Shown piece after piece: positions 20,750 to 37,370 of a stretch of DNA of 64,000 nucleotides. The notes below the pieces were generated by a model. The model was given only the letters and a program-made list of their open reading frames with translations, ran no database searches and was not told the origin of the DNA. The position numbers and the translations under genes are program-made. The stretch is from Candidatus Nanopelagicus hibericus. GTDB lineage: Bacteria; Actinomycetota; Actinomycetes; Nanopelagicales; Nanopelagicaceae. How positions within the stretch are numbered: the first letter of the stretch is position 1; each line of letters begins with the position of its first letter. Location of the stretch: assembly GCF_002288005.1 (NCBI RefSeq), contig NZ_CP016771.1, positions 1 through 64,000 of the forward strand, in the 5' to 3' direction.

Positions 20750-22765
20750 ATGTCTTTGCCATTTCCAGCAGCACCTGCGCAATCTGAATCAAGAAGTGTC
20801 CTTGCAATTCCAGCATTTAGAAAACTTTGGCAAGCGATGGCTTTTTCATCCTTTGGCGACTGGCTTGGACTTCTAGCCTCAACTGCATTAGCTCAACAAC
20901 TAGCAGGTGGTGATTATGCCAAGGCAAACTTTGCAATTGCAGGCGTATTTATTGTCAGGTTGTTACCAGCAGTAATCTTAGGTCCATTTGCTGGTGTTAT
21001 TGCAGATAAGTTTGATCGTAGAAAATTGATGATTATTTGTGATGTTTTACGCTTTTCCCTATATCTTTCAATACCAATTGTTGGAAACTACTTTTGGCTA
21101 TATACCGCATCGATTCTGGTGGAAATTGTTACCTTATTCTGGTCGCCTGCAAAAGAAGCATCAGTTCCAAACCTTGTTCCTAAATCTAAATTAGAGAGTG
21201 CTAATCAGGTATCACTTCTTGCAGCATATGGAACTGCTCCAATTGCTGCGATTTTGTTTTCTACTCTTGCATTATTTACAGGTGCAATAAATGCAGCTTT
21301 GGGAAACACCACACCAGCATCGGCTGCAGATCTAGCTCTTTATATAAACGCAGTGAGTTTTCTATTTTGCGCGTACACAGTTTGGCGCTTAAAGGAGATT
21401 CCATCAGGGCCAAGTCAGAAGTTAAATTCTTCTTCAATTGGCAAATCTCTTTGGGAGGGCTTCTCATTTATCAAAGGCTCTAAAATTATTAGAGGTCTAA
21501 TCTTTGGAATGCTTGGTGCCTTCTTTGCAGCAGGCGCCGTAATTGGACTAGCTCGAACCTTTGTCGATGATCTACAAGCTGGTGAAGCTGCTTATGGAAT
21601 TTTATTTGCGGCTGTATTTTTTGGGCTAGCACTAGGTATCTCATTTGGGCCAAGGGTATTTGCACAATTTTCTAGAAGAAGATTATTTGGAATTTCATTA
21701 ACTATTTCAGGATTATTATTAGTAATTCTCTCCTTGGTTTTAAACCTAGTACTTGCAATCTTTATCACCGTTTTACTTGGCTTATTCTCTGGCATCTCTT
21801 GGGTAATTGGATTTACCATGCTTGGGCTTGAGGTCGAAGATGAGGTGCGAGGAAGAACCTTTGCATTTGTTCAATCAATAATAAGAGTCTCACTAGTTTT
21901 AGTTTTAGCAATTTCACCATTGGTAGCAGCTGCAATAGGTGAACATACCTACTCATTTAGAACCACAACAGTTACCTATAACGGCGCTGCCTTTACGATG
22001 TTTTTCGCCGGATTTATTGCAGTACTAGTTGGAGTTATTTCATATAGACAAATGAGAGATCGACCAAATGTTTCACTTTTAAGTGATATTAAATCAGCAT
22101 TCCGTGGTGAGTTAGGTGCGATCACAGGTCAGGTGACAAGTGGAGTATTTATCTCATTTGAAGGCGGCGAAGGTTCTGGCAAATCAACTCAAACAAAATT
22201 GCTAAAAGATTGGCTTGAGAAAAATGGTGAAGAGGTTTTATTAACTCGTGAACCTGGTGGAACTACTTTAGGTAATCAATTACGGGATATTTTGTTGGAC
22301 AATAAAACTGGCGTGATTTCACCTCGTGCTGAAGCTTTGATGTATGCAGCAGATAGAGCCCATCATGTTTTCTCTTTAATTAGACCTGCTCTGCAAAGAG
22401 GTGAGATAGTAATTACAGATAGATACTTTGATTCATCAATTGCATACCAAGGGGCTGGAAGAGTATTACTGCCAAGTGAGGTAGCAAGAATTTCTAGATG
22501 GGCAACAGAGTCTTTAACTCCAACTTTAACTGTAATCATGGATCTACCAGCCGAGATCGGCTTAGGCAGATTGCATTCAACTGATCGATTAGAGAGTGAA
22601 CCATTAGCTTTTCATGAAAGAGTAAGGCAAGAGTATTTAAACCTTGCCCACCTTGATCCTGAGCGCTTTTTAGTGGTGGATGCATCTTTAACTATCGAAC
22701 AAATTCATCAAATTATTATTGAACGAGTAGGCGCCATTAAAACTTTAAAAAGAAACCTGAAATAA
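20750..22765 (+). CDS. tmk: MFS transporter-like membrane domain fused to thymidylate kinase
   Basis: Residues about 20-435 form a Major Facilitator-like membrane domain with roughly 11-12 hydrophobic segments and the typical loop GVIADKFDRRKLM. Residues about 465-671 are a complete dTMP kinase with P-loop EGGEGSGKST, the DR-type motif REPGGT, and TDRYFDSSIAYQGAGR. The kinase makes dTDP for DNA synthesis. Similar fused proteins are known in other actinobacteria, so this is not a sequencing artefact; the two domains are in one uninterrupted frame. The transported substrate is unknown. It lies between topA and holB, and holB starts 2 bp after its stop. Confidence 0.93.
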   Translation: MSLPFPAAPAQSESRSVLAIPAFRKLWQAMAFSSFGDWLGLLASTALAQQLAGGDYAKANFAIAGVFIVRLLPAVILGPFAGVIADKFDRRKLMIICDVLRFSLYLSIPIVGNYFWLYTASILVEIVTLFWSPAKEASVPNLVPKSKLESANQVSLLAAYGTAPIAAILFSTLALFTGAINAALGNTTPASAADLALYINAVSFLFCAYTVWRLKEIPSGPSQKLNSSSIGKSLWEGFSFIKGSKIIRGLIFGMLGAFFAAGAVIGLARTFVDDLQAGEAAYGILFAAVFFGLALGISFGPRVFAQFSRRRLFGISLTISGLLLVILSLVLNLVLAIFITVLLGLFSGISWVIGFTMLGLEVEDEVRGRTFAFVQSIIRVSLVLVLAISPLVAAAIGEHTYSFRTTTVTYNGAAFTMFFAGFIAVLVGVISYRQMRDRPNVSLLSDIKSAFRGELGAITGQVTSGVFISFEGGEGSGKSTQTKLLKDWLEKNGEEVLLTREPGGTTLGNQLRDILLDNKTGVISPRAEALMYAADRAHHVFSLIRPALQRGEIVITDRYFDSSIAYQGAGRVLLPSEVARISRWATESLTPTLTVIMDLPAEIGLGRLHSTDRLESEPLAFHERVRQEYLNLAHLDPERFLVVDASLTIEQIHQIIIERVGAIKTLKRNLK

Positions 22766-23957: not shown

Positions 23958-24602
23958 ATGCGACTTGACCATGTTTCCTATGTTGCTTCCCACGATCAGA
24001 TCTCTGATGTTGTTAATCGAATTGGCTCCCAAATTGGAACCGCATTTGTTGATGGCGGAATTCATCCAAAATTTGGAACCAGAAATTTCACGGCCCCTTT
24101 GCTTAATGGACAATACATTGAAGTAGTTTGCCCATTGGATCATCCAGCAACAGATGCAACTCCATTTGGAAATGCAGTTAAGAAAAAAGCTGATGCAGGT
24201 GGTGGTTGGTTAACTTGGGTATTTAGTTCAAGTGATTTAGGAAAAGTAGAAGAAAAATTTGGGAGAAAAGCCGCAGATGGATCTAGAACAAGACCTGATG
24301 GTAGTGAGCTGAAGTGGAAGCAAATTGGCGTAAAAGACATCATGGGTTCTGGTGAATTACCTTTTTTTATTCAATGGTTGACAGATAAGCACCCTTCAAA
24401 AGATGGTAATTCCGTTGCAAAAATTACTAAAATTGTCATTGCTGACGATGAAGAGTTAGCAAATTCTTGGTTTAAAAATGAAATTAACTCTGGATTAACA
24501 GATATTCAAATTGAGTGGATAAAACCTGAGTTGAATGAAGGAGAAAAAGGCATTGTAAAAGTTGAAATTGGTTTGAAAGACCATTCAATAATTATTGAAT
24601 AG
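23958..24602 (+). CDS. Glyoxalase-like (VOC superfamily) protein
   Basis: This 214-residue protein begins MRLDHVSYVASHDQISD, the first strand-helix unit of the glyoxalase/vicinal oxygen chelate fold. It keeps the segments FGTRNFTAPLLNGQYIEVVCPLDH and PFFIQWL that are typical of the 'glyoxalase-like' family found near replication genes in actinobacteria. Reaction and substrate cannot be assigned. CAAAAT (23946-23951) ends 6 nt before the ATG, so it may be leaderless. It is the last gene of core-like composition before the carbohydrate island. Confidence 0.75.
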   Translation: MRLDHVSYVASHDQISDVVNRIGSQIGTAFVDGGIHPKFGTRNFTAPLLNGQYIEVVCPLDHPATDATPFGNAVKKKADAGGGWLTWVFSSSDLGKVEEKFGRKAADGSRTRPDGSELKWKQIGVKDIMGSGELPFFIQWLTDKHPSKDGNSVAKITKIVIADDEELANSWFKNEINSGLTDIQIEWIKPELNEGEKGIVKVEIGLKDHSIIIE

Positions 24603-24626
24603 GCATTTAAATTTAATATCAACCGT

Positions 24627-25355
24627 TCAATTCCGAAGTATTTTCTCGAAGCCCTTAAATAGGTCATCGCTAGTCCAGCTATTTTCAAGCAGATAATCAG
24701 GCTTCATATCTAGTAGTTCAATAGAGGAATGCGCTCCTGTCGCAGCAGCCATTACAAATAGATCAGAATTCTTGGCGGACAAAATATCACGGGGGCTATC
24801 GCCAATAACTAGACCAACTTGATCCTCAGCAAGAGAGTTTTTTGCATTCTCAATAACCAAATCCCTATTCCAATCCTTTTCTGTGGAATAAAATAAATTA
24901 TTTTTGTCAAAATATTGCAATAGATCAACATGACTTAATTTAATTAATGCACCATTCAGACAATTCCCCGTTCCAATTGCGAGCTCAATATTTGGAGACT
25001 CATGTAGCATAATTAAAGTCTTCTTGATCTCGCCAATTACCTGTGTTTTACTCTCCCGCAAAGAACTGGGTAGTAAAAGAGAATACTCATTGAGAATCTG
25101 TGTAATCTCATTGAAGGGGGTCTCCATGTTTATTGATTTGAGCAGATATTGGGCGATTTCGTAATCAGTAAACCCGCTTAATTTTTTTCGTTCAATTTGA
25201 ACTTCCTGACCAGCGAATTTAGATACCGCGTTAGCAAAAGGAACTGCCGCGGCTCCATGTGTCTGTAACAATGTACCGTCTATGTCCCAAAATATTTTTA
25301 TCTTCTTATAATTTTTTGCTCTTTGCATATGGAAAGCATATCTTTTTTGACGCAT
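24627..25355 (-). CDS. HAD-superfamily phosphatase
   Basis: The product has motif I DIDGTLLQT, motif II in AIGTGN and motif IV GDSPRD, with a helical cap between motifs I and II, i.e. a phosphoglycolate phosphatase/beta-PGM-type HAD enzyme. The furthest upstream start is a TTG at 25373; the ATG at 25355 is preferred, and a third Met at 25328 is possible. It is transcribed away from kdsA across a 107-125 bp gap. Its position suggests it could remove phosphate from KDO-8-phosphate in place of KdsC, but KdsC is a cap-less HAD, so this is only inference. General phosphoglycolate phosphatase activity is the main alternative. Confidence 0.75.
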   Translation of the reverse strand: MRQKRYAFHMQRAKNYKKIKIFWDIDGTLLQTHGAAAVPFANAVSKFAGQEVQIERKKLSGFTDYEIAQYLLKSINMETPFNEITQILNEYSLLLPSSLRESKTQVIGEIKKTLIMLHESPNIELAIGTGNCLNGALIKLSHVDLLQYFDKNNLFYSTEKDWNRDLVIENAKNSLAEDQVGLVIGDSPRDILSAKNSDLFVMAAATGAHSSIELLDMKPDYLLENSWTSDDLFKGFEKILRN

Positions 25356-25373
25356 ATTTTTAAATATCTCCAA

Positions 25374-25480
25374 ATAGATCTTTGTTTCAAAGGGAATCTG
25401 AGGTAAAATTCCTCAAAAGTATGCAAATACTCTATATACTTAGTTCATTAACTAACTAGCGCTGATTGTAGGTTTAATAC
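25374..25480. promoter_or_regulatory. Divergent promoter region between HAD gene and kdsA
   Basis: This AT-rich gap contains TATACT (25435-25440), a good -10 hexamer about 40 nt before the kdsA ATG. TAGGTT (25469-25474) lies 6 nt before the ATG and would give a leaderless start. GGAAT/ATTCC and GAGG/CCTC short inverted repeats lie near 25393-25414. No strong Shine-Dalgarno precedes kdsA. Confidence 0.4.
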
Positions 25481-26353
25481 ATGACATCAAAAATTATCGA
25501 AATAGGCTACGGTAATGTAAAACGAGTTAAAATCGGCGGGAATGGAAAATTAGTTCTTATTGGTGGTCCGTGTGCAATAGAGAACAGAGATCACGCATTG
25601 ATGATGGCAGATCAAATTTCAAAAATTTGTGACGAACTTGGTGTTGATTGGGTGTACAAATCATGTTTTGATAAAGACTGTAGATCGTCACCAGATAGCT
25701 TCCATGGAGTTGGCATCGACCAAGGTTTAGAGATTTTATCTGAGGTAAGAAATGAGTTTGGCATACCGGTTACGTCAGATTTCTCTGATCCTGCCTGGGC
25801 TGCAGCAACTGGGGAAGTTTGTGACCTTGTGCAAGTTCCAGCATATTTATGTCGACAAACCTCAATACTCCGTGCTGCTGCAAAAACTGGTAGACCCATA
25901 CACTTAAAAAAAGGACAATTCATGAGTCCATGGAACATGAAGAACTCAGTAAAGAAAATAGAAGCAGCTGGTGGAACCCAGATATTATTGGCAGATCGCG
26001 GAACTTTCTTTGGATACAACATGCTTGTAAATGACATGAAGTCTTTTGCAATAATGGCAAAAACTGGTTATCCAGTATGTTATGACATAACCCATTCAAT
26101 TCAGATGCCTACATCTATGGGAGAAATATCAGGTGGCGAACGTGAATTTATACCTCCGCTAACTCGAGCAGCAGCAGCAGCAGGAATCGATGCAATATTT
26201 GCAGAGATACACAATGATCCTCCCAACGCATTATCTGACCCAAACACAGTTTTAAATATTGCTCACCTAAAGCATGTGCTGGGCCAAGCCCGCGACATTC
26301 ACAATTTCCGGCTAGAATTACTTGAAAAATACGGGGTTGATAATGTCTACTAA
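25481..26353 (+). CDS. kdsA: 3-deoxy-8-phosphooctulonate (KDO-8-P) synthase
   Basis: KdsA condenses phosphoenolpyruvate with arabinose 5-phosphate to KDO-8-phosphate. The 290-residue TIM-barrel protein has the family segments GGPCAIEN, FDKDCRSSPDSFHG, VPAYLCRQT and ILLADRGTFFGYN. Cys31, His205, Glu242 and Asp253 correspond, with a constant offset of 20, to the four metal ligands of the metal-dependent Aquifex enzyme (Cys11, His185, Glu222, Asp233). This places it in the metal-dependent class. It is KdsA rather than NeuB or DAHP synthase by these motifs. It heads a four-gene unit and overlaps the CBS gene by 11 bp. Such a gene is unexpected in an actinobacterium without an LPS outer membrane. 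Confidence 0.93.
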   Translation: MTSKIIEIGYGNVKRVKIGGNGKLVLIGGPCAIENRDHALMMADQISKICDELGVDWVYKSCFDKDCRSSPDSFHGVGIDQGLEILSEVRNEFGIPVTSDFSDPAWAAATGEVCDLVQVPAYLCRQTSILRAAAKTGRPIHLKKGQFMSPWNMKNSVKKIEAAGGTQILLADRGTFFGYNMLVNDMKSFAIMAKTGYPVCYDITHSIQMPTSMGEISGGEREFIPPLTRAAAAAGIDAIFAEIHNDPPNALSDPNTVLNIAHLKHVLGQARDIHNFRLELLEKYGVDNVY

Positions 26354-26729
26354 TGAAATAGTAAGTTCGAGAATGATCAAAATTAATAGCTTTCCAATAT
26401 TAGACGAAAATGTAAGCTTGAAGTCTGCGCTGGATAGCATGAGTAAATATTCACTTGGAGTTGCTTGTTTTGTTAATAAACAAAACCAGTTTGTTGGTAT
26501 TTTAACTGACGGCGATTTAAGAAGACTTATTCTCAATAAACAAAGCCCACTACCAGCCTTACTCATAACGTCTGCCATTGAATTTGGAACTAGATCTCCA
26601 AAAAATATAAAAGAAAACGACACAATAAGTAAGGCAATCGCATTGATGGACGAAAGTCGTATATGGGATCTTCCTGTGCTAAATGAGCTTGGAAATGTAG
26701 TAGGACTTTTAAATCGCCATAATTTATAA
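26343..26729 (+). CDS. Stand-alone CBS-pair protein resembling the KdsD C-terminus
   Basis: From the ATG at 26343 this is a 128-residue protein made only of two CBS domains. Its GILTDGDLRRLI and the following SPKNI and DLPVLNELGNVVGLLNRHNL segments resemble the regulatory CBS pair of arabinose-5-phosphate isomerase (KdsD/KpsF) or of LegF/PtmE-type nucleotidyltransferases. The SIS isomerase domain that normally precedes the CBS pair is absent. An upstream in-frame ATG (26322) would add seven residues but extends the overlap with kdsA from 11 to 32 bp. kdsB follows after 2 bp. Likely role: ligand-sensing regulator of the KDO pathway; not testable from sequence. Confidence 0.8.
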   Translation: MSTNEIVSSRMIKINSFPILDENVSLKSALDSMSKYSLGVACFVNKQNQFVGILTDGDLRRLILNKQSPLPALLITSAIEFGTRSPKNIKENDTISKAIALMDESRIWDLPVLNELGNVVGLLNRHNL

Positions 26730-26731
26730 AT

Positions 26732-27520
26732 ATGATGCAAAAAATAAATGAAGTTACCATTCTAATTCCAGCAAGGTTAAATTCACAAAGGCTACCTAAC
26801 AAATTACTACTCGAAATAAATGGCTTACCAATAATTGAGCATGTACGACGACGAGCTGAATTAAATGAATTCGGAGCGGACGTATATGTTGTATCAAATG
26901 ACAAAAAGATATTGAAAACTATCTCGGGATATGGTGGCAAAACACTACAAACTCATAGAAAACATCTAAATGGCACCAGCCGGTGTTCGGAAGCAGCCGA
27001 ACAGTTAAAATCGAAATTCTATTTAATTCTTCAAGGCGATGAAATACTGGCTCTACCACGACACATCAACCAATTAATAAATGAATCTATCAATAAACCA
27101 AACTCAAAAGTAATTAATTTAATATCGAAGCTAGAAAAAGAATCAGAATTGAAAGACAAGAATATTGTTAAATGCTTAATAGGTATGAACAAGCAAGTCA
27201 TCGCACTTTTCCGAAAATCTCCACTAACCTCAAAGAGTAAAACACAAATGCAACTAATATATAAAGTACTCGGCATGTTTCTTTTCGAATCAAATACATT
27301 ATCCCAAATAGCTAAGCAACCTATTCAACCACTGGAAAAAACTGAACTAATTGAACAATTACGACTTCAAGAAATCGGAATAACTATAAACTCTTTACTA
27401 GTTGATATATCTCTTGAATCAGTAAATATAGCCTCGGACCTTTCTAAGGTGAAGAAAAAACTGAAAAACGATAAAGAACAAAAACAGATCTTGGCTAAAA
27501 TTCTCAATTATGAAAATTAA
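26732..27520 (+). CDS. kdsB: CMP-KDO synthetase-like cytidylyltransferase
   Basis: KdsB activates KDO with CTP to CMP-KDO. The 262-residue protein keeps the nucleotide-binding start TILIPARLNSQRLPNKLL, the THRKHLNGTSR segment, LILQGDE with metal-binding Asp103, and PLEKTELIEQLR near the C-terminus. It is diverged: the usual VDTPEDL near the end, whose Asp is a metal ligand in known enzymes, reads VNIASDL here (Asn232). The sugar may therefore be KDO or a related 3-deoxy-ulosonate. It overlaps the next gene by 11 bp. A close alternative is another 3-deoxy-ulosonate cytidylyltransferase; a NeuA-type enzyme is less likely. Confidence 0.82.
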   Translation: MMQKINEVTILIPARLNSQRLPNKLLLEINGLPIIEHVRRRAELNEFGADVYVVSNDKKILKTISGYGGKTLQTHRKHLNGTSRCSEAAEQLKSKFYLILQGDEILALPRHINQLINESINKPNSKVINLISKLEKESELKDKNIVKCLIGMNKQVIALFRKSPLTSKSKTQMQLIYKVLGMFLFESNTLSQIAKQPIQPLEKTELIEQLRLQEIGITINSLLVDISLESVNIASDLSKVKKKLKNDKEQKQILAKILNYEN

Positions 27521-29018
27521 CAATAATATTTATTCAGACTACACAACTTTTATAGATACTTGTAACAAAATCTTTGAAGTTTTTTCAAAATCAGATGTGG
27601 CATTATCTCCAATACTGAGCATAAGTAAACCGATACCAGAAGTTATAAAGAAAAAGCAAAGAATTATTCAAAATGTTACTAAAGAAAAGTATTACAGCTA
27701 TATTGTAACTTTTATACCGTGCATTCTTATCAATTTACTTGTATCCATTTTGCATCATTTTTATCATTTACAGTACTGGCGGCAATTCCCATTTAAAAAA
27801 CTTGCCAAAACTGAAATAATCTTTGTCTCACATTACACAGGGCAGGAAGCAAAAGTGGACGAAGATCCGTACTTTGGAACACTTCCACAACAGTTGAATG
27901 AAAACAAAAGACCGAATCTTCTTTTATATATAAATCATAATAAAGGTAATCCATCAAACCTCAATTTAGAAACGGAGGCACAAAAATTAAACAACTTACA
28001 ATATATTTTACCAAAAACTGTTAACACAAAAGAATTCTTAAAGTTATATATAAGTATTTTTGGAAACCTTAAAGAAATCATGTTCCATGTAGTAAAAAAA
28101 GGGGAGAAAAGTAAGCGCGAGAAAACATTAATGTTAGAACTTGCAATTCAGCAACTAGGCTTAGAATCCATGTCACAAACCATATTAGCGAAAAACATCG
28201 AACAAATAGTTGGTCAAACTGAAGCAAAGAAAATGGTCCTGACTTATGAAGGTCATAGCTTCGAAACTTATGTAGCCAATAAATTAAAGAGTAAGATTCC
28301 GAATCTGGATGTGTGTGTTTACCAGTTCGCACCTGTTGTTCCGGCGCAAAATTCTTTTTTTAGAAACCTTCATTACCTTAATAAAAATATAAGAGTATTT
28401 GTAAGCGGTTCGCAATATAAAGAAAATATTCTAAGGAGAACTAAATTACCTTCTAGCGCATTAACTGTTATTGGTTCTAGGAAAAATAGAGCAGAGAAAT
28501 TGTCTTTCACTGGAAGAAAAGATGTAACTGTAGTATTTGCTGCCGAGGGCTCAAAAGACTCTCTTATGGAATTTATAAATTTAGCATTCTATTCTTCTCT
28601 AGAGAATCCTGGTACCACATTCATCGTGCGGGCTCACCCAGATTCTGCTGATTATAAAAATGAATTATTCAAAAAAATGGGAAATCATTCTTCAAATTTC
28701 TATTTATCTAAAGATTCACTTATAAATGATTTGCATAAAGCAACCCACTGCGTTTATCGAAGTTCATCTGTCGGTCTTGAAGGACTGATGTATGGAGTGA
28801 TACCAATACATTATGCGGCGGAAATGAATTCAGTTCTAGATCCTATTAACACGCTAGATCTACCACATCTGCAATTTACAGATATAGATACTTTCAATCA
28901 AAAAATCAAAGAAATTTCCAAAAGTCATATAGAAATAGATGAGCAGCAGTTAAGAGATTATAGGGAAGTTTTTAATGGATACTTTGAGCCTTTGAAATTG
29001 AACATACTTAACTATTAG
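27510..29018 (+). CDS. Putative GT-B glycosyltransferase, candidate KDO transferase
   Basis: I do not recognise the exact family. The 502-residue protein has one hydrophobic segment near residues 65-90, then a large soluble part. The C-terminal half reads like a GT-B donor-binding domain: VTVVFAAEGSKDS, then RAHPDS, then YRSSSVGLEGLMYGVIPIHY. The HP and SSVGLE(G/A) pattern is shared with CMP-sugar-using polysialyl- and capsule-type KDO transferases. It overlaps kdsB by 11 bp and ends the kdsA-CBS-kdsB unit, so use of the CMP-activated product is a reasonable inference. Base composition is strongly AT-rich. Confidence 0.65.
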   Translation: MKINNNIYSDYTTFIDTCNKIFEVFSKSDVALSPILSISKPIPEVIKKKQRIIQNVTKEKYYSYIVTFIPCILINLLVSILHHFYHLQYWRQFPFKKLAKTEIIFVSHYTGQEAKVDEDPYFGTLPQQLNENKRPNLLLYINHNKGNPSNLNLETEAQKLNNLQYILPKTVNTKEFLKLYISIFGNLKEIMFHVVKKGEKSKREKTLMLELAIQQLGLESMSQTILAKNIEQIVGQTEAKKMVLTYEGHSFETYVANKLKSKIPNLDVCVYQFAPVVPAQNSFFRNLHYLNKNIRVFVSGSQYKENILRRTKLPSSALTVIGSRKNRAEKLSFTGRKDVTVVFAAEGSKDSLMEFINLAFYSSLENPGTTFIVRAHPDSADYKNELFKKMGNHSSNFYLSKDSLINDLHKATHCVYRSSSVGLEGLMYGVIPIHYAAEMNSVLDPINTLDLPHLQFTDIDTFNQKIKEISKSHIEIDEQQLRDYREVFNGYFEPLKLNILNY

Positions 29019-29021
29019 TTT

Positions 29022-30005
29022 TCATTTATTTATTCTAAATTCTAAAATATGGGTAGCATCTTTTTTGGTGAATACAAGTGACGTGACGTCTAAAAAAAGC
29101 TTAGATATGGTAATCATATCTGTTAAGAACTTCAAAGATCTCAAATCTTTGCTAATCATCGCGTTAATTGTGGAACCTATAAATCTCCAATAAAATGCTA
29201 GTACAGAAAGCTCTTTATTTGTTAAGACAAAAAATAATTGTATGTAAGTATGAAGCACAAAATAGGTTAATTGGAAATGATCTTCAGGATATTTTTGAAA
29301 TATAAACTTGCTTGAAGGGCTAAAGAAAAGTTTTCCATATTTAAGATTCTGGAAAGAAAAAAATAGATCTTCGCCAATAGCGTGGCGTATTTTGTCAAAC
29401 GGCACATTATATTTTTTAGCTAACTCTGCTTTCCAAATCGAAGCACCATTCAACCATTGAGTTTCAATAACTTCGTGGCTACTCATATAACTTGCGTTAT
29501 AGCCACTTTTATTTACCTGCCCTAAGTTTTTATCTGAGCTTAAGAACAATTTCTTCATCAATTTATACTGTGATTTTCGAACAGATGCATAACTTGGAGC
29601 ACAAGACATCCCGATACCAGCAATTTTGTTTTGTTTAGAAAGTCTTGATATATCAACAAATACATTTTCAATGGAATCGGGCAACAAAATAATATCGTCA
29701 TCAAAAAAAGCTATCCAATTTAGGTTTTCAGAAAAATACTTCAGCCCAAGTTTCTTCTGAATAACTTGTCCACTACTTGATAAATGCACATGCTTCAAAT
29801 TTAATTTATCCGTATATTTTTTTATTACTTCAGTTATGTCGATTCCTGAAGATGCAATTACCACTTCTATTGGCAATAATGACAAATTGCTTACAGATTC
29901 GAGAAATTTATTAAGCTGCTGTGGCCTGTCTTTTGTTGCCACTAAAATCCCATAAATTGGCAAAAGAACTTCTTGACTATCTATATTTGTAGTTCTGTTA
30001 TTCAT
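29022..30005 (-). CDS. GT2-family glycosyltransferase
   Basis: The 327-residue protein has a GT-A fold start (YGILVATKDRPQQLNKFLES), the donor/metal-binding triad in FFDDDI near residue 102, and an acceptor-side Glu-Asp in IGEDLFF near residue 213. The C-terminal 80 residues are rich in hydrophobic and aromatic residues, suggesting membrane association. It is a minus-strand gene within a plus-strand island: it converges with the previous gene (3-bp gap) and is only 22 bp from the divergent RmlD-like gene. Sugar specificity unknown. Confidence 0.85.
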   Translation of the reverse strand: MNNRTTNIDSQEVLLPIYGILVATKDRPQQLNKFLESVSNLSLLPIEVVIASSGIDITEVIKKYTDKLNLKHVHLSSSGQVIQKKLGLKYFSENLNWIAFFDDDIILLPDSIENVFVDISRLSKQNKIAGIGMSCAPSYASVRKSQYKLMKKLFLSSDKNLGQVNKSGYNASYMSSHEVIETQWLNGASIWKAELAKKYNVPFDKIRHAIGEDLFFSFQNLKYGKLFFSPSSKFIFQKYPEDHFQLTYFVLHTYIQLFFVLTNKELSVLAFYWRFIGSTINAMISKDLRSLKFLTDMITISKLFLDVTSLVFTKKDATHILEFRINK

Positions 30006-30027
30006 AAATGTAGTTTACTCTTTCCTA

Positions 30028-30981
30028 GTGAGTAGCGTATTCGATAAAAATGAATTTCTAAGATTTAGTAGTACGGAAACGGATTTCCTGGTTTTAGGAG
30101 GCACGGGGTTATTAGGGTCAGAGTTTGTAAATGAATTATCAAAGACTCACTCGGTTGCTGCAACTTTTCATGAGGTACAACCTTTTAAGGTTGGTCGAGT
30201 AAACTGGCACAAACTCAATGCCATCGATTTAGTTTCAATCAATGAACTAATCTATCTATTGCGACCAAAGGTCGTTATCAATTGCATAGCTTTAACTGAT
30301 ATTGATAAATGTGAGTTGTACCCAAAACTTGCCGCAGATCTAAATCATTTATTGCCCCAAACACTAGCCAAGATTTGCTCCGAGCTTGGAATATATCTAA
30401 TCCACATCAGCACAGATCACTACGATTCATCATTAAGAATTCCTCGGAAAGAGCAAGATGTTGTATTTGGAATAAATCAATATGGAATAACCAAAATGCA
30501 GGGTGAAAATTCAATCCTAGATTTGAATGTTTCAGCTTTAATTTTACGCACTAATTTTTTCAGCTACTCACTGTTGCGAAGTAATTCATTTCTTAATTGG
30601 ATAGTCAATAACTTAGAAAAGGATCAAATAATTAAAGGATTCACTGACATCGAGTTCTCACCTATTTCAATCGCTGAATTGATTAGTTGCACTTTTGCAC
30701 TACAAGAAATGAGAATTAGTGGAATAGTGAATGTTTCTAGCAATAAATCTATTTCAAAATACGATTTTATAAGCTTAGTTGCAAAAGCGTTTAATTTTGA
30801 AGCAAACTTAATTGAACCTTCAGTGAGCGATGAAGTCAAAGGCAGAGTTAGGCGCCCAACTTATATGTCGCTAGATAATGAGCGATTATCCTCTATTATG
30901 CATCGTAAAATGATTTCATTAGATAGTATGATTGATCAAGTGAGTGACGGCTATTTCAATAGTCGGTCCAATAAAAAGTAG
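30028..30981 (+). CDS. RmlD-like NAD(P)-dependent sugar-nucleotide reductase
   Basis: The 317-residue short-chain dehydrogenase has the Rossmann motif GGTGLLGSEF (residues about 28-37), RPKVVINCIALTDIDKCE as in dTDP-4-dehydrorhamnose reductase, and the catalytic STDHY and YGITK elements. The GTG start gives about 22 residues before the Rossmann strand; no closer start codon is available. It precedes a UDP-GlcNAc 4,6-dehydratase, not rmlABC, so reduction of a UDP-4-keto-6-deoxy-HexNAc (as by WbvR) is more likely than rhamnose synthesis. That specificity is inference. Confidence 0.8.
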   Translation: MSSVFDKNEFLRFSSTETDFLVLGGTGLLGSEFVNELSKTHSVAATFHEVQPFKVGRVNWHKLNAIDLVSINELIYLLRPKVVINCIALTDIDKCELYPKLAADLNHLLPQTLAKICSELGIYLIHISTDHYDSSLRIPRKEQDVVFGINQYGITKMQGENSILDLNVSALILRTNFFSYSLLRSNSFLNWIVNNLEKDQIIKGFTDIEFSPISIAELISCTFALQEMRISGIVNVSSNKSISKYDFISLVAKAFNFEANLIEPSVSDEVKGRVRRPTYMSLDNERLSSIMHRKMISLDSMIDQVSDGYFNSRSNKK

Positions 30982-30998
30982 ATTGGTAGTTTGAATTT

Positions 30999-31982
30999 AT
31001 GGAGACATTAAAAAACAAAACGGTGATGATTACTGGTGGAACTGGTTCTTTTGGGCAGTCATTCGTGAGAAAAATACTAGAGGAGAACGAAGTTGAATCC
31101 GTAATAGTTTTTAGTCGTGATGAACTTAAACAATTTGAAATGCAGGCTAATCTAGACAACCAGAAAGTTAGATTTGTTTTAGGCGATGTAAGAGACTATA
31201 AACGCCTTTTGGAAGTTTCAACCGATGTTGATGTCATAATTCATGCAGCAGCAATGAAACAAATAACCGCAGCTGAGTTAAATCCTATTGAAGCAATAAA
31301 AACTAATGTTCTAGGAGCCGAAAACATAGTGCGAGTAGCAATTGAAAATGAAATCAGTTCAGTTATTGCATTAAGTACTGATAAAGCTTCCAACCCAGCA
31401 AATTTGTATGGTGCTACAAAATTATGTTCAGACAAATTAATCATTGCTGGTAATAACTTGACTCGAGATAAGTTACCGATTTTTTCTGTAGTTCGCTACG
31501 GTAATATTCTTGGATCAAGGGGAAGTGTGATTCCATTATTTTTACAGCAAGCCAAAACAGGAACTATCACTATCACGAATGAGAAAATGACCAGATTTTG
31601 GCTCTCATTAGATGATGGAGTCGACTTTGTTTTAAAAAGTATCAAAACTATGCAAGGAGGGGAAATATTTATTCCGAAAATTCCAAGCTTTAGAGTAATC
31701 GATGCTGCCAAAGTTGTTGCGCCAGAAGCAAAAATTAATATTATTGGAATACGGCCAGGCGAAAAACTACATGAAATTATGATCACAGAAGATGACTCAT
31801 TCCACACTCGCGAATTCGAGAATTCTTATGTAATCCTCTCCCCTGACTTGATAAAATCAAATTCTTATAAGAATTCTGGAAAACCAGTAGCCGAAAATTT
31901 TAGATACTCAAGTGACACTAATGCACTATGGCATACCCATGAATCATTTAAAGAGAAATTAGCGAGTATCGGTCTTGTTTAG
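30999..31982 (+). CDS. UDP-GlcNAc 4,6-dehydratase (PseB/WbvB type)
   Basis: This enzyme class converts UDP-GlcNAc to a 4-keto-6-deoxy-L-hexosamine nucleotide, the first step to pseudaminic acid, L-FucNAc or L-QuiNAc/L-RhaNAc. The 327-residue protein has TGGTGSFGQSF (about 12-22), HAAAMKQITAAELNP, the catalytic LSTDKA followed nine residues after the Asp by Tyr in LYGATKL, and RYGNILGSRGSVIPLF. The Asp-Lys...Tyr spacing equals that of Helicobacter PseB (Asp132, Lys133, Tyr141). No pseC aminotransferase or pseI is present, so pseudaminate is unlikely and a 6-deoxy-L-HexNAc product is favoured. Confidence 0.88.
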   Translation: METLKNKTVMITGGTGSFGQSFVRKILEENEVESVIVFSRDELKQFEMQANLDNQKVRFVLGDVRDYKRLLEVSTDVDVIIHAAAMKQITAAELNPIEAIKTNVLGAENIVRVAIENEISSVIALSTDKASNPANLYGATKLCSDKLIIAGNNLTRDKLPIFSVVRYGNILGSRGSVIPLFLQQAKTGTITITNEKMTRFWLSLDDGVDFVLKSIKTMQGGEIFIPKIPSFRVIDAAKVVAPEAKINIIGIRPGEKLHEIMITEDDSFHTREFENSYVILSPDLIKSNSYKNSGKPVAENFRYSSDTNALWHTHESFKEKLASIGLV

Positions 31983-32661
31983 TCGCACACTTATAATTAT
32001 GGCCCATCCGGATGACGAAATTCTGGGGTGCGGAGGACTGTTAGCAAAGCATTCAAAGTCCATTACATTCCAAGTTTTATTTTTAGCCGAAGGCAGTAGT
32101 TGTCGCTATGACAAATCGGATTTAGAGAAGGCTAAAATTTCTATAGCCGAGCGTGAAAAAAGTGCGAAGGAAGCCTTAAGCATTTTTGAACCCGACCGAA
32201 TAAGTTTCACGAACTTACCATGTGGCCGACTGGATCAAGTTCCTATTTTAGAGATGAATAAAACCATCGAATCACATATAAAGGATTTTAAACCTTCAAC
32301 AATTTTCACCCATTCTGAGAATGATACGAATAGTGATCACCGTAGAGTTGCAGAATCTGTTTTTATGGCAAGTCGCCCAGGAGCATTAAATACGGTTTCG
32401 AACGTCGTGAGCGCTGAAATTCCATCTTCGTCAGAATGGAATTTTAACCAACCATTTCAGCCAAACTACTTCATAAAACTGACTGACAGTCAATTGAATA
32501 TGAAAATCGAAGCACTCTTAAAATACAAATCTGAAATTCGAGATTATCCATTTCCTCGTTCGCCAGAAGGTATCTCGGCATTCGCACGATACAGAGGAAT
32601 CCAATCAGGCAATGAATTTGCTGAAGCTTTTCGAATAATTAGGAGCATAGAAAATTCATGA
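31975..32661 (+). CDS. PIG-L/LmbE family zinc N-deacetylase
   Basis: The 228-residue protein has the zinc motif MAHPDDE (about residues 9-15) and SDHRRV (third ligand and catalytic region) of GlcNAc-type N-deacetylases. The TTG start overlaps the dehydratase by 8 bp; it is kept because the family needs the preceding beta-strand (RTLIIMAHPDDE), which an ATG at 31999 would lose. In this neighbourhood it may deacetylate the 2-acetamido sugar nucleotide or a glycan intermediate. Roles in mycothiol synthesis (MshB) are less likely given the context. Confidence 0.85.
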   Translation: MFSRTLIIMAHPDDEILGCGGLLAKHSKSITFQVLFLAEGSSCRYDKSDLEKAKISIAEREKSAKEALSIFEPDRISFTNLPCGRLDQVPILEMNKTIESHIKDFKPSTIFTHSENDTNSDHRRVAESVFMASRPGALNTVSNVVSAEIPSSSEWNFNQPFQPNYFIKLTDSQLNMKIEALLKYKSEIRDYPFPRSPEGISAFARYRGIQSGNEFAEAFRIIRSIENS

Positions 32662-32677
32662 AGGATTGAAGATATAA

Positions 32678-33613
32678 TTGAGAATTTTAATGACTGGTGC
32701 AGGAGGGCCTTCAACTGAAGCAATTTTGAAATTATGGAGTCCTAAACATGAACTTTTTTTTACTGACGCCAAAATTGATAGCATCACTCCTCAGGTTTCA
32801 AGTGATAAAAGATTTTTTGTTCCCTACGCGACTGATGAACAGTTTCTGCAATCAATTACTAACTTAACAAAGAGACTTCAGATAGATATCTTGATCAGTC
32901 AAGTTGATGAAGAATTACCAATAATTGCAGGAAATAAAAAACTATTTAATCCAACTTTACTATTAATACCGGATGAGAATTTCATAAACCTTTTTCTAAA
33001 TAAATTGCAGTCGGGGATTAAAATGAATGAGAATAAAATTTTAGAACCAGGCACTAAAGTATTGAATAATGAATCAAAATTTGAGGGCCTTCCTGTAATT
33101 TTTAAACCCTGTTTTGGACGTGGATCTAGAAGTATTTTTCATGCAGAAACACAAGAAGAGTTCGAAGCGTTAAAGAATTATTTGCTGACTCAAGAAGAAT
33201 TATTTATCACGCAACAAAAAATTCATGGAGACGAATATTCAGTTCAAGTTCTTGCGAATTCAAGAGGAATCTTGAAGGGTATAACTCCAATACTTATAAA
33301 AGGAAAAAGAGGTAGCACTACGAGTGGAGTTGTTTCAAATAATAGTGAGGTGATTAAAGCATGCTTAAATTTTCATGAAGTATTCAAGACAAGTGGTACA
33401 TATAACATTCAACTTATGTTAAACAAAGACCAAGCCTATATTTTCGAAGTCAACCCCCGTGTTTCTACCACTATGTGTGTTTCTTTATTCGGAGGATCAG
33501 ATCCAGTAGATATCTATTTTGATAGTGGTATTGAAGAAAACATAAAATTCTTGTTGGAAGGTACAAAACTTCAGAGGCATTGGAATCATACTTTTTCTAT
33601 GAATGGCAATTAA
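32678..33613 (+). CDS. ATP-grasp domain carboxylate-amine ligase
   Basis: The 311-residue protein begins MRILMTGAGGPST like carbamoyl-phosphate-synthase-type ATP-grasp proteins. It has the glycine-rich KPCFGRGSRS loop (about residues 146-155) and the metal-binding FEVNPRVSTTM segment. Such enzymes join a carboxylate to an amine through an acyl phosphate. Its TTG start is preceded by AAGGA (32661-32665). Placed 16 bp after a deacetylase gene, it could acylate the freed amino group of a sugar; this is inference. The true substrate is unknown. Confidence 0.78.
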   Translation: MRILMTGAGGPSTEAILKLWSPKHELFFTDAKIDSITPQVSSDKRFFVPYATDEQFLQSITNLTKRLQIDILISQVDEELPIIAGNKKLFNPTLLLIPDENFINLFLNKLQSGIKMNENKILEPGTKVLNNESKFEGLPVIFKPCFGRGSRSIFHAETQEEFEALKNYLLTQEELFITQQKIHGDEYSVQVLANSRGILKGITPILIKGKRGSTTSGVVSNNSEVIKACLNFHEVFKTSGTYNIQLMLNKDQAYIFEVNPRVSTTMCVSLFGGSDPVDIYFDSGIEENIKFLLEGTKLQRHWNHTFSMNGN

Positions 33614-33621
33614 TTTAACAA

Positions 33622-34563
33622 ATGAAAATTCTTATAGTTGGAGGAACCCGATTTATTGGTAAAAACCTAGTGTCACTATTAGTAAAAACGAATGTTGAAT
33701 TTGTCTTAACTTCTAGAAGAATCAACCCTGACGTACCACATTCGCAACAGATAATTTGCGAACGCGAGGAATTTACTAAAAGTGCGGGCAGCAAGCAAAA
33801 ATTTGATCTTATAGTTGACTTTAATGGTTACAGTGCAAACCAATTTTACGATTTCAATTTACGAGCTTCTAAATCAAAGTATTTCTTTGTAAGTACTGCG
33901 TGGATTGATCGCCCAATTAATGCTGCACGTACGAACGATTCTCGTCCTTTAGCAAAAACTTTATTCAATTCACTCGAAACAAATTATGTCAAGGCAAAAA
34001 AAGAAGCTGAAGAGAAGGTAATAGAAAGTTATGGACATAATGCAACAATTTTGCGTTTACCAATCGTCTTGGGTTTCGATGATCATCATAAACGTCTCGA
34101 TTACACTATTTACAGAATAAGAAATTCCAATAAATATATTTTGCCAAGTAATGGGAATAACATTTTAGAAACAATTCTTGTGAACGACGTATCAAGAATT
34201 ATGTTAAAACTCATTTTGAATTCAGATAAAGACATTCCCAATTATTTGAACTTCAAACCACCCCAAAAAACAACTTACTTAAACTATGTAAGCAAAATAT
34301 CATCATTTTTGCAGAAAGATACTGAATTTGTAGATATTGAAGTTGACGCATTCACAAAAAATTTGGGAAAAGTAGCAGTATGTGACCCTTTTTGGAGAGA
34401 GTCTGAAAGTGATGCAACGGGTAAGAATGCTTTTCAAATAACTAATTCACAACCGACCGGTATTAGCGATATCCTCCCTTATCTACTGAAATCGAATTTA
34501 ATAAATGCAGTTCAACATGAAGCTTTCTTGCAAGAAAGGACATATTTTGCTCGAAACAGATAG
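33622..34563 (+). CDS. NAD-dependent epimerase/dehydratase (extended SDR)
   Basis: The 313-residue protein begins MKILIVGGTRFIGKNLV, a Rossmann dinucleotide motif, and has a YVKAK catalytic Tyr/Lys at about residues 127-131. Overall it resembles the divergent epimerase family related to UDP-glucose 4-epimerase-like and isoflavone-reductase-like SDRs. The substrate is not recognisable. It follows the ATP-grasp gene by 8 bp and overlaps the next gene, so it belongs to the same operon and probably acts on the same sugar. Confidence 0.78.
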   Translation: MKILIVGGTRFIGKNLVSLLVKTNVEFVLTSRRINPDVPHSQQIICEREEFTKSAGSKQKFDLIVDFNGYSANQFYDFNLRASKSKYFFVSTAWIDRPINAARTNDSRPLAKTLFNSLETNYVKAKKEAEEKVIESYGHNATILRLPIVLGFDDHHKRLDYTIYRIRNSNKYILPSNGNNILETILVNDVSRIMLKLILNSDKDIPNYLNFKPPQKTTYLNYVSKISSFLQKDTEFVDIEVDAFTKNLGKVAVCDPFWRESESDATGKNAFQITNSQPTGISDILPYLLKSNLINAVQHEAFLQERTYFARNR

Positions 34564-35338
34564 TATTGACGACATAAAGGAATTTTTGAGTGCTCTAGGA
34601 AAAAAACTAGTTGCTTTTTCTCCCGAGAAAATTGAAACAGTAAGTGAAATTAATGAAAACTTGAAAACAAATATTGATCAAATTGCTCATGACTTTATGA
34701 TTGAAAAACTCAATCTGTTGAGTAAATTGCCCGTCATTAGCGAAGAAGATCCTATATCCATTAGTAAACCAAGGCCAAATAAATATTGGATTATCGACCC
34801 CATTGACGGAACACGTAGTTTGGTTAATGGATATCAAACTTATGTTTGCCAAGTCGCATTAATTGAGAATGCAATGCCAATTATGTCTGTTGTTTATGAA
34901 CCTGCGTTAAATAATTTTTACCATAGTATTAAAGGTCGAGGATCATACAAGAATGATCAAAAATTGAATTCAAACCCACAGAAGTTGCCCGATTCAATAA
35001 TTGATAATTATCCCGAACCAATTTCATCGATTAAAAACTTGATCGAAAATACAAGCATATCTAAATACTTAGAATGTGGGAGCATAGCTCTAAAAATGTG
35101 CAGAGTGGCTGATATGTCTGCCGATCTATTTTTAAAGAAAACACGAGTTTTTGATTGGGATATTGCACCCGCTGCCTTGATTGTTCAAGAAATGGGGGGT
35201 GTAGTAAAAACACTGTCTGGCAATCAAATCTTATATGAAGGAAATTTTAAAAAAGATAATTTATTAGTGTCAGCCAACCAGTCAATACATGAATATACTT
35301 TGGGTAAAATTAAGGAATTGAATGGCTTTAATGATTGA
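34547..35338 (+). CDS. Inositol monophosphatase/CysQ-family phosphatase
   Basis: The protein has the family metal sites: SEEDP, then DPIDGTRSLVNG, and the C-terminal WDIAPAALIV. Members hydrolyse inositol phosphates, 3'-phosphoadenosine nucleotides or sugar phosphates. A frame from ATG 34505 overlaps the epimerase by 59 bp; the TTG at 34547 is preferred because AAGAAAGGA ends 6 nt upstream and the overlap falls to 17 bp, giving 263 residues. In a carbohydrate operon, a sugar-phosphate substrate is plausible. It overlaps the following GT2 gene by 17 bp. Confidence 0.82.
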   Translation: MLETDSIDDIKEFLSALGKKLVAFSPEKIETVSEINENLKTNIDQIAHDFMIEKLNLLSKLPVISEEDPISISKPRPNKYWIIDPIDGTRSLVNGYQTYVCQVALIENAMPIMSVVYEPALNNFYHSIKGRGSYKNDQKLNSNPQKLPDSIIDNYPEPISSIKNLIENTSISKYLECGSIALKMCRVADMSADLFLKKTRVFDWDIAPAALIVQEMGGVVKTLSGNQILYEGNFKKDNLLVSANQSIHEYTLGKIKELNGFND

Positions 35339-36230
35339 TAAAAGAAAATATGAATTATCAATAATCGTGCCAGTGACAAAAATGCATGGGCGTTTAGATA
35401 ACTTCAAAAAAATGGTTGAAGATATAAGCAATTTTTCAATTCAATTAATAGTTGTTCACGATATAAATGACGATAAAACTGGACGCGAGTTGCAGATAGT
35501 CCTTAAAAATAATAAGAACATAAAATTGATTGAAGGAAAATATGGTTCAGCTGGTGGTGCACGTAATGCCGGCCTAGAATTGGTTAATTCCGAATGGATA
35601 GGATTTTGGGATAGTGACGATAAACCGGAAGTAGAGCAATACTTAGATTTAGTGGCAAAGATTAAAAAAGAACAAAATTTAGTCGGATACGGAAATTTTT
35701 TAAAAATTTCGGCCATGCCTAAAAAATTACAAAAATCTAAAAATTCCTTCAATGTCGAGGGTGCAACTAATTCTCTAAAGCCATATAAAAATCCAGGAAT
35801 CTGGCGGTGGATTTTCGCGAGTGAGGTTCTAAAAAATACAAGGTTTCCAAACCTAAAACTCGGAGAAGATGTTTGCTTCCTTTTTTCCACCCTTCAAAAA
35901 GTGGATAAGATCACTAAATCGAGTCAGGTAGTCTATAAATATTTTGTAGATAATCCATTACAAAGTACTGAATTATGGAAAAATGACACTCGGATATTTC
36001 TCGTTATCAAGTTCATGAACGAAAACTTTATTTCTAATCAAAAGAACCAAAATATCGCCATCGGTTTATTGGTTAATCAATTTTACAGTAGTTTAAAGCT
36101 TGATAAATTACGGTATAAAGCTATTTCAATCAAATTATTTATAAAAATTTTCTTTAAGATGAATCTCTCTGAAAAGAAATTATGCGTTAAATTGTTGATC
36201 ACAATTCCTTTAAATTTTTTGGAGACATGA
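35322..36230 (+). CDS. GT2-family glycosyltransferase
   Basis: The 302-residue protein starts with a GT-A fold (LSIIVPVTKMHGRLDNFKKM) and has the sugar-nucleotide/metal motif in FWDSDDKP near residue 94, preceded by the GSAGGARNAGLE segment typical of GT2 enzymes; LGEDVCF supplies the later acidic pair. The basic, hydrophobic C-terminus probably contacts the membrane. A second Met at 35331 reduces the overlap with the phosphatase gene from 17 to 8 bp. The fucosyltransferase-like gene starts 1 bp after its stop. Confidence 0.85.
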   Translation: MALMIDKRKYELSIIVPVTKMHGRLDNFKKMVEDISNFSIQLIVVHDINDDKTGRELQIVLKNNKNIKLIEGKYGSAGGARNAGLELVNSEWIGFWDSDDKPEVEQYLDLVAKIKKEQNLVGYGNFLKISAMPKKLQKSKNSFNVEGATNSLKPYKNPGIWRWIFASEVLKNTRFPNLKLGEDVCFLFSTLQKVDKITKSSQVVYKYFVDNPLQSTELWKNDTRIFLVIKFMNENFISNQKNQNIAIGLLVNQFYSSLKLDKLRYKAISIKLFIKIFFKMNLSEKKLCVKLLITIPLNFLET

Positions 36231-36231
36231 A

Positions 36232-37215
36232 GTGAAAATAGGAAAAACAGAAGATAGCAATTTGCCAATTATATATATTCACGCAGGTCTTGGGAATCAA
36301 TTATTTCAATTGGCCGCAGCCAATGTTTTGTGTGAGGATGGAAAATATTTGATCGACATTAGTAGTTTCAATAATTCAGAAGATTTTTTATCTAAATTTA
36401 GTTTTGGTAAGAAATTAAATATTCTTCCGATGAAAAAAAAGCAGTTCATGGAGCAGAAACTAATAAATTTGATTATTAGGGCCAATTATCGACCAAATAG
36501 GAAACAAAAAACACAATGGATTTATTTTCTTGCTGATATTGTTTCGAAAAATATTTTATCAAAAGTTTATTTGAAAGGAAGAACAATAGTTACATCTTCA
36601 AACTTAGGATTCGATGAGCAGTTAATCATTAAAAAGCCACACTCATATTTAATTGGTTATTTTCAATCTTATGTTTGGCCATCTAAGCCAATCAACAAAA
36701 ACTTTTTTAAAGATATGCAGCTAATTAAAAGTAATTCTGATTTTGATTATTATCGTGAACTATCCAAAGTTGAGAAACCTTTAGTTGTTCACATTCGTTT
36801 AGGAGATTATCTTGCTCAAAAATCATTTGGAATTCTAAGTAAAAAATATTTTCATGATGCTATAGAAAGTTTATGGAACATTAATAAGTATAAGAAAGTA
36901 TGGATATTTTCTAATGAGCCTGATAAAATTAAATCATATGTACCAAGCCATTTAAGTTCTTTATGTAGAACTATTGATTTAAATTTGAATGATGCCGCTG
37001 CTACTTTGCAATTGATGAAATATGGCCATGGGTACGTATTGTCTAATTCGACATTTGGTTGGTGGGGTGCATTTTTATCAATTAATGATGAAGTAGATGT
37101 AGTTGTTCCTAATCCTTGGTTTAAAGTAGCAGTCGATCCAGATCAAATCATCCCTGCAAACTGGTCCAGAATGAGTGGTTGGCCAATTCATAACACACTC
37201 CAAGGTCGCATTTAA
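36232..37215 (+). CDS. Alpha-1,2-fucosyltransferase-like (GT11) protein
   Basis: GT11 enzymes transfer fucose from GDP-fucose to galactose or similar acceptors. The 327-residue protein has the three family motifs: HAGLGNQLFQLAAA near residue 17, VVHIRLGDYL near residue 185 (nucleotide-binding HxRxGD) and SNSTFGWWGAFL near residue 263. The GTG start follows a GGAGAC site. It is the last gene of the island. No GDP-mannose dehydratase or GDP-fucose synthase is in the window, so donor supply is unresolved, and a related GDP-sugar donor is possible. Confidence 0.88.
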   Translation: MKIGKTEDSNLPIIYIHAGLGNQLFQLAAANVLCEDGKYLIDISSFNNSEDFLSKFSFGKKLNILPMKKKQFMEQKLINLIIRANYRPNRKQKTQWIYFLADIVSKNILSKVYLKGRTIVTSSNLGFDEQLIIKKPHSYLIGYFQSYVWPSKPINKNFFKDMQLIKSNSDFDYYRELSKVEKPLVVHIRLGDYLAQKSFGILSKKYFHDAIESLWNINKYKKVWIFSNEPDKIKSYVPSHLSSLCRTIDLNLNDAAATLQLMKYGHGYVLSNSTFGWWGAFLSINDEVDVVVPNPWFKVAVDPDQIIPANWSRMSGWPIHNTLQGRI

Positions 37216-37263
37216 AAATATTACTTAGAATTTATAAGATTAGTAATCGTAGAGTATAAATAA

Positions 37264-37272
37264 TGTTATAAT
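37264..37272 (+). promoter_or_regulatory. Extended -10 promoter of the DEAD-box helicase gene
   Basis: TGTTATAAT combines the TGN extension with a perfect TATAAT hexamer (37267-37272). No -35 match lies at 17 bp, which is tolerated by extended -10 promoters. It predicts a transcript start near 37279 and a leader of about 90 nt. Confidence 0.6.
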
Positions 37273-37291
37273 TTGTTCGTTCTTCCATGTG

Positions 37292-37358
37292 CTTACAATT
37301 TGTAAGTGCCTTGCGAGTCTTAATCTCAAATCACCACCAAGACGCGCATCATGTCTTG
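37292..37358 (+). promoter_or_regulatory. Structured 5' leader of the DEAD-box helicase gene
   Basis: A 15-bp palindrome CTTACAA-T-TTGTAAG (37292-37306) and a hairpin CAAGAC/GTCTTG (37338-37343, 37353-37358; 9-nt loop) lie between the promoter and the ATG at 37371, the latter ending 2 nt before the only AGG ribosome-binding candidate. Long folded leaders are common for cold-induced RNA helicases; the role here is inferred. Confidence 0.4.
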
Positions 37359-37370
37359 ATAGGTTGATAT

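Follow-up and report, generated by a model that had tools for sequence, protein, structure and literature searches.

The window analysed here comprises the first 64,000 nucleotides of contig NZ_CP016771.1 of Candidatus Nanopelagicus hibericus (assembly GCF_002288005.1, Actinomycetota). Our subject is a run of four genes in it, at positions 25481-29018, which encode a KdsA-like enzyme, a CBS-pair protein, a KdsB-like enzyme and a glycosyltransferase, with all open reading frames (ORFs) intact, adjacent and overlapping, as the initial annotation had described them. That annotation read the genes as a pathway to 3-deoxy-D-manno-octulosonic acid (KDO), a sugar of Gram-negative bacteria, activated with cytidine monophosphate (CMP). 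We retain the part of this claim that places a CMP-activated 3-deoxy-ulosonate pathway in an actinobacterial chromosome, but not the part that names the sugar as KDO: the aldose site of the synthase is changed, a SIS-type isomerase making arabinose 5-phosphate (A5P) is missing, the KdsB histidine is lost and most of the sampled hosts keep a canonical KdsA. The fallback that had been offered, a 'KDO-like' sugar, is favoured by the evidence. We refer below to the two changed enzymes and their close relatives as variant KdsA and variant KdsB.

The KdsA-like enzyme and its partners

Variant KdsA of the window has the KdsA barrel that is shared with synthases of 3-deoxy-D-arabino-heptulosonate 7-phosphate (DAHP), in a form resembling KDO 8-phosphate (KDO8P) synthase (Foldseek, TM-score 0.8-0.9). 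Its best PDB matches are KDO8P synthases and it also matches PRK05198. Our alignment has the four metal ligands that had been pointed out, Cys31, His205, Glu242 and Asp253, in 86/86 variant rows. Identity with NeuB was considered and rejected, since the Pfam scan returned PF00793 only and the NCBIfam scan no NeuB or PseI model.

A search of one genome per species, over 84,980 species, found 79 further loci with variant KdsA, at 57-82% identity to the window. In a tree of the 86 variant rows with 26 canonical KdsA and 15 DAHP synthases, the window and the 79 loci form a separate clade (support 97/100, with a single origin in 96% of bootstrap trees) that falls outside canonical KdsA, the internal order of which is itself poorly resolved. 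The phylogeny proposed earlier as a check thus sets the enzyme clearly apart from DAHP synthases, which form their own group on a long branch (100/100). The closest relative, L039 (82% identity), is on a contig from fresh water whose label reads beta proteobacterium. Going by record titles, the hosts other than that of the window belong to Pseudomonadota, Bacteroidota, Cyanobacteriota, Spirochaetota, Nitrospirota, Myxococcota, Verrucomicrobiota, Balneolota, Latescibacterota and Uhrbacteria, although some are draft bins with possibly wrong labels. We found no description of this type of KdsA or of its operon in the open-access literature, and no relative above 60% identity in plasmid and phage collections. 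Two plasmid loci that were inspected carry an annotated kdsA, one of them together with a KpsF gene and a cytidylyltransferase gene. Among viral contigs a first scan gave nothing and a second gave 43 loci (L199-L241) at 35-43% identity, below the range of variant KdsA; the only one of these whose motif was read is of the KANRS type.

The aldose site of the variant carries class-specific changes. The motif KANRS has become KDCRS, with the aspartate in 86/86 rows and the cysteine in 81/86 (94%), while the A and N of KANRS(T) are found in all 26 canonical rows. The fixed differences, from canonical to variant, are S62C, A66D, N67C, H102S, F122Y, S149A (reverse), S176F, G211T, G212S, P255N and N256T. 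The two classes share Lys60, Arg68, Arg125, Lys143, Arg173 and the metal ligands. In Neisseria KDO8P synthase the equivalents of N67 and F122, Asn57 and Phe112, were modelled as touching ligands in the A5P site (PMC6650799). Since catalytic residues are kept and positions of the A5P site are changed, the aldose-reading part of the enzyme appears to be altered; judged by its residues, variant KdsA is a class with kept catalytic machinery and changed aldose recognition. Canonical KdsA is also present in 27 of 42 genomes with the variant, which is therefore no spare copy.

The description of the third gene as a KdsB homologue holds in that the protein is a cytidylyltransferase (PF02348, E 4e-30) related to KdsB, which accounts for all its best PDB matches, but it scores below every curated KdsB cut-off (97.1 against 155.2 for TIGR00466) and has lost a near-invariant histidine. 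This residue, in the motif KH(I/L/V)G, is histidine in 22/24 canonical rows and isoleucine, leucine, valine or methionine in variant KdsB, in which S160 is also replaced by phenylalanine. The half of KdsB that holds the changed positions binds Kdo (domain roles: PMC3149649).

The second protein had been called a KdsD-like CBS pair. It does match the C-terminal part of KpsF/KdsD, but only that part (profile positions 160-268 of 268), and without a SIS domain it would be no isomerase. Its gene accompanies variant KdsA in 77/79 loci. The complete window genome has no SIS-type A5P isomerase at all, and SIS domains occur in it only as a pair in one 601-aa GlmS-like open frame. By gene content the module is of a kind that works like a CMP-KDO pathway, yet both of its specificity-setting enzymes fail the features of KdsA and KdsB that were tested.

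Operon forms across phyla

Across phyla the operon reads variant KdsA-CBS-(aldolase-SDR-SDR)-variant KdsB-glycosyltransferase, where SDR is a short-chain dehydrogenase/reductase, and the window has the reduced form. Between the CBS and KdsB genes, 37/50 loci with variant KdsB have genes for an HpcH/HpaI-type aldolase and two SDR oxidoreductases, as against 0/14 loci with a KdsB of the histidine type; for the aldolase alone the difference is significant by Fisher's test (p 4e-7), although the loci are not phylogenetically independent. In L039 the aldolase gene directly follows the CBS gene. The reduced operon is found independently in Prochlorococcus, SAR11 and SAR116 loci as well. No such aldolase was found anywhere in the genome of the window, of some Prochlorococcus or of one SAR11 strain with the reduced operon, and other genomes with this form hold distant aldolase homologues. 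KDCRS does not differ between the full and the reduced operon, and the step of the aldolase and SDRs therefore probably comes after variant KdsA or concerns another precursor.

Other genes recur at these loci. Genes for a KdsC-type phosphatase are found in 19/79. Where variant KdsA is paired with a histidine-type KdsB, in L046, L098, L100, L102 and L109, a radical-SAM-like gene (cluster 21) lies after or near KdsB, and several of these five also carry a large TPR-like gene (cluster 25). A pair of proteins of about 261 and 273 aa is encoded beside a legionaminic acid island and many variant KdsA operons (L242:7408-8984, minus strand; L243:4093-5677, plus strand; L041:8426-9211); the first protein and a relative of the second have no Pfam match.

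The surface-sugar island and its host genome

The four genes lie in a 12.6-kb gene block, 24627-37215 (Table 1), with a GC content of 34.0% against 41-42% outside. The block is absent from four same-genus genomes, in which the flanking genes are direct neighbours, and the genes on both sides of the island are collinear with those genomes. By composition and gene order the surface-sugar island is a swapped-in insertion, and these lineages are known to carry glycotype islands (PMC7771536).

Table 1. Genes of the island and the evidence on which each assignment rests.
Feature	Position	Strand	Basis
Variant KdsA (KDO8P-synthase-like enzyme, KDCRS in place of KANRS)	25481..26353	+	profile match, motif, tree, fold
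CBS-pair protein, KdsD C-terminal half without SIS domain	26343..26729	+	ATG 26343 fits start in relatives; ORF called from TTG 26322
Variant KdsB (cytidylyltransferase without KH(I/L/V)G histidine)	26732..27520	+	family match, alignment
GT-B fold glycosyltransferase, family without Pfam model; proposed CMP-ulosonate transferase	27510..29018	+	model, Foldseek, context
HAD-family phosphatase, unproven candidate for removal of ulosonate phosphate	24627..25373	-	Pfam scan; role inferred
GT2 glycosyltransferase, 41% identity to counterpart in relative's legionaminic acid island	29022..30005	-	
RmlD-like reductase	30028..30981	+	Pfam and NCBIfam scans
PseB-type UDP-N-acetylglucosamine 4,6-dehydratase (inverting)	30999..31982	+	NCBIfam score 460.8 vs 407.75
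PIG-L/LmbE de-N-acetylase	31975..32661	+	
ATP-grasp enzyme	32678..33613	+	
NAD-dependent epimerase/dehydratase-like protein	33622..34563	+	
Inositol-monophosphatase/CysQ family phosphatase, second candidate for phosphate step	34505..35338	+	role inferred
GT2 glycosyltransferase	35322..36230	+	
GT11 glycosyltransferase	36232..37215	+	
Island interval	24603..37370	.	flanks 23958-24602 and 37371-38669 direct neighbours in four same-genus genomes

The window opens a single contig of 1.22 Mb, and the genome is 99.9% complete. That this contig is actinobacterial is borne out by a GuaB1-type GMP reductase, HspR encoded beside GrpE and DnaJ, a type II DAHP synthase and collinearity with same-genus genomes. 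Contamination by Gram-negative DNA was rejected, because the operon sits in a single complete contig between genes collinear with those genomes. The pathway had also been presented as a trait of the lineage, which it is not: among 296 genomes of the order variant KdsA occurs in the window genome only, and the KdsA homologues of two others, both about 40% identical, have the ordinary KANR(S) motif. Another genome of the family, L003, carries an ordinary kdsB-kdsD-kdsA set with a full SIS-CBS KdsD and a KANRS KdsA, and hence true KDO genes may exist in the window's family too. A published list of phyla without apparent coding capacity for lipopolysaccharide (LPS; PMC5007114) includes Actinobacteria, and the module implies neither an outer membrane nor LPS. 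A literature search for KDO in monoderms gave hits that were mostly off the subject.

The glycosyltransferase of the operon (502 aa) has no Pfam match, and sequence searches of Pfam and PDB gave nothing useful. Its predicted model (pLDDT, a per-residue confidence score, 86) has a GT-B fold, and Foldseek returned many GT-B enzymes, the Kdo transferase WaaA included; since enzymes using UDP-sugars score higher than WaaA, structure does not fix the donor, and we propose from genomic context that the enzyme uses a CMP-sugar. In a same-family genome a homologue (26% identity) stands beside LegB, LegC, NeuD, NeuB and NeuC, and after these legionaminic acid genes come the counterparts of GT2, PseB, the second GT2 and GT11 of the window, in unchanged order. 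That this set and its order are shared suggests that ulosonate cassettes are swapped within a single type of surface glycan island.

Two further observations concern neighbouring genes. The RmlD-like, PseB, PIG-L, ATP-grasp, epimerase and inositol-phosphatase genes (window 30028-35338) recur as a group near variant KdsA in SAR116-type loci (e.g. L086), which suggests a second, linked sugar pathway. Outside the island, at 20750-22765, a single 671-aa frame resembles a major facilitator superfamily (MFS) transporter fused to thymidylate kinase, and relatives in the genus keep it.

Identity of the sugar and comparison with known systems

Which sugar does the module make, then? From what is read in the sequence, namely families, motif changes, clade, missing SIS isomerase, operon conservation and island insertion, we infer the chemistry of the steps, the aldose and product, a role for the CBS protein and transfer to a surface glycan as follows. 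Variant KdsA would condense phosphoenolpyruvate with an aldose phosphate probably other than A5P. Our best guess, which we argue rather than claim, is ribose 5-phosphate, which is present in every cell and would give the C5 epimer of KDO8P. Erythrose 4-phosphate seems less likely because the host's own DAHP synthase already makes the product expected from it. An enzyme of the HAD or inositol-phosphatase family would then take off the phosphate and variant KdsB charge the sugar acid with CMP, while the CBS protein, whose origin would be the regulatory half of KdsD, may sense the CMP-sugar or another nucleotide and tune the flux. The GT-B enzyme at 27510 would finally transfer the sugar to a surface polysaccharide made by other genes of the island.

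We consider it likely that a CMP-ulosonate module which moves horizontally is present in the window in reduced form, and that this module derives from KDO synthesis, has specialised away from it and makes a KDO-like but probably non-KDO surface sugar acid. A wider proposal, for and against which we see about equal weight, is that variant KdsA marks an undescribed pathway to a CMP-activated non-KDO 3-deoxy-ulosonic acid, either a stereoisomer or a product altered by the aldolase and two SDRs, and that this pathway has been transferred among surface-glycan islands in some ten phyla, with Prochlorococcus, SAR11, SAR116 and a monoderm actinobacterium among its hosts.

Several results weigh against a non-KDO product. 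Variant KdsA passes the cut-off of the KDO8P-synthase model TIGR01362, if narrowly (323.1 against 314). Fourteen loci, deep branches included, pair it with an ordinary histidine-type KdsB, so that its product may be KDO or something very close. The residue contacts come from a modelling study of another species. When full-length KdsD was used as query against 17 genomes, full matches appeared in three, all of which have variant KdsA as their only KdsA, and none in the window genome or in eight Prochlorococcus genomes with variant KdsA; the lack of a match in the latter speaks for a non-KDO product, but such absence is weak in draft genomes, and only the window genome is complete. The passed cut-off and the histidine-type KdsB of some loci would fit a true KDO pathway, with variant KdsA as a divergent synthase of KDO8P, an unrecognised isomerase or a salvage kinase as the source of A5P, and KDO in the envelope; the KDO8P-synthase fold, the metal site and the KdsC-type genes of some loci agree with it. 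We nevertheless regard this alternative as unlikely, given an aldose-site motif changed in all members, canonical KdsA alongside in most of the genomes compared, the lack of SIS-type KdsD in the complete window genome and a KdsB without its near-invariant histidine.

It is considerably less probable that the operon of the window is what remains, without function, of a KDO locus that has decayed and lost the aldolase and SDR genes, as the aldolase of L039 and its absence from the window genome could be taken to mean, because the frames are intact and overlapping with catalytic residues kept and the same reduced form is found independently elsewhere. That variant KdsA is a DAHP synthase or another aromatic-pathway enzyme lying in the island by chance is hardly credible: it shares superfamily PF00793, but DAHP synthases group separately, the genome has its own type II enzyme and, in phylum after phylum, the gene is linked to those for the CBS protein and a cytidylyltransferase.

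Should the product of the family be a different ulosonic acid, then some of the most abundant plankton carry an acidic surface sugar that has been overlooked, and phages and grazers are likely to make contact with sugars of this type. Annotation pipelines will name the genes kdsA and kdsB, with the result that KDO is ascribed to organisms that possibly do not make it, Prochlorococcus and a monoderm actinobacterium among them. Since the enzymes are small and have well-studied near relatives, the question of substrate is directly testable.

Among known systems, metal-dependent KDO8P synthase (Aquifex aeolicus, Brucella; TIGR01362) shares with variant KdsA the fold, metal ligands, conserved lysines and phosphate-side arginine, at about 40-49% identity to canonical members. 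The variant differs in forming a separate clade, in KDCRS for KANRS, in His to Ser at 102, Phe to Tyr at 122 and GG to TS at 211-212, and in having no tie to a KdsD gene. The CBS protein resembles the C-terminal part of the A5P isomerases KdsD/KpsF/GutQ, its best PDB match being the CBS pair of 4o9k, but is without their SIS domain. Variant KdsB belongs to the same family, PF02348, as CMP-KDO synthetase (E. coli 1gq9; TIGR00466) and departs from it in its sub-cut-off scores, the replaced KH(I/L/V)G histidine and phenylalanine for Ser160. The glycosyltransferase has the GT-B fold in common with WaaA and other CMP-sugar transferases of that fold, with no sequence relation found and about 10% identity over the structural match. 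Compared with the CMP-sugar clusters for legionaminic and pseudaminic (nonulosonic) acids, the window has an ulosonate synthase of the KdsA type rather than the NeuB type and no amino-sugar precursor pathway feeding it, yet it shares with the legionaminic acid island of its relative a homologous GT-B transferase and the partner glycosyltransferases.

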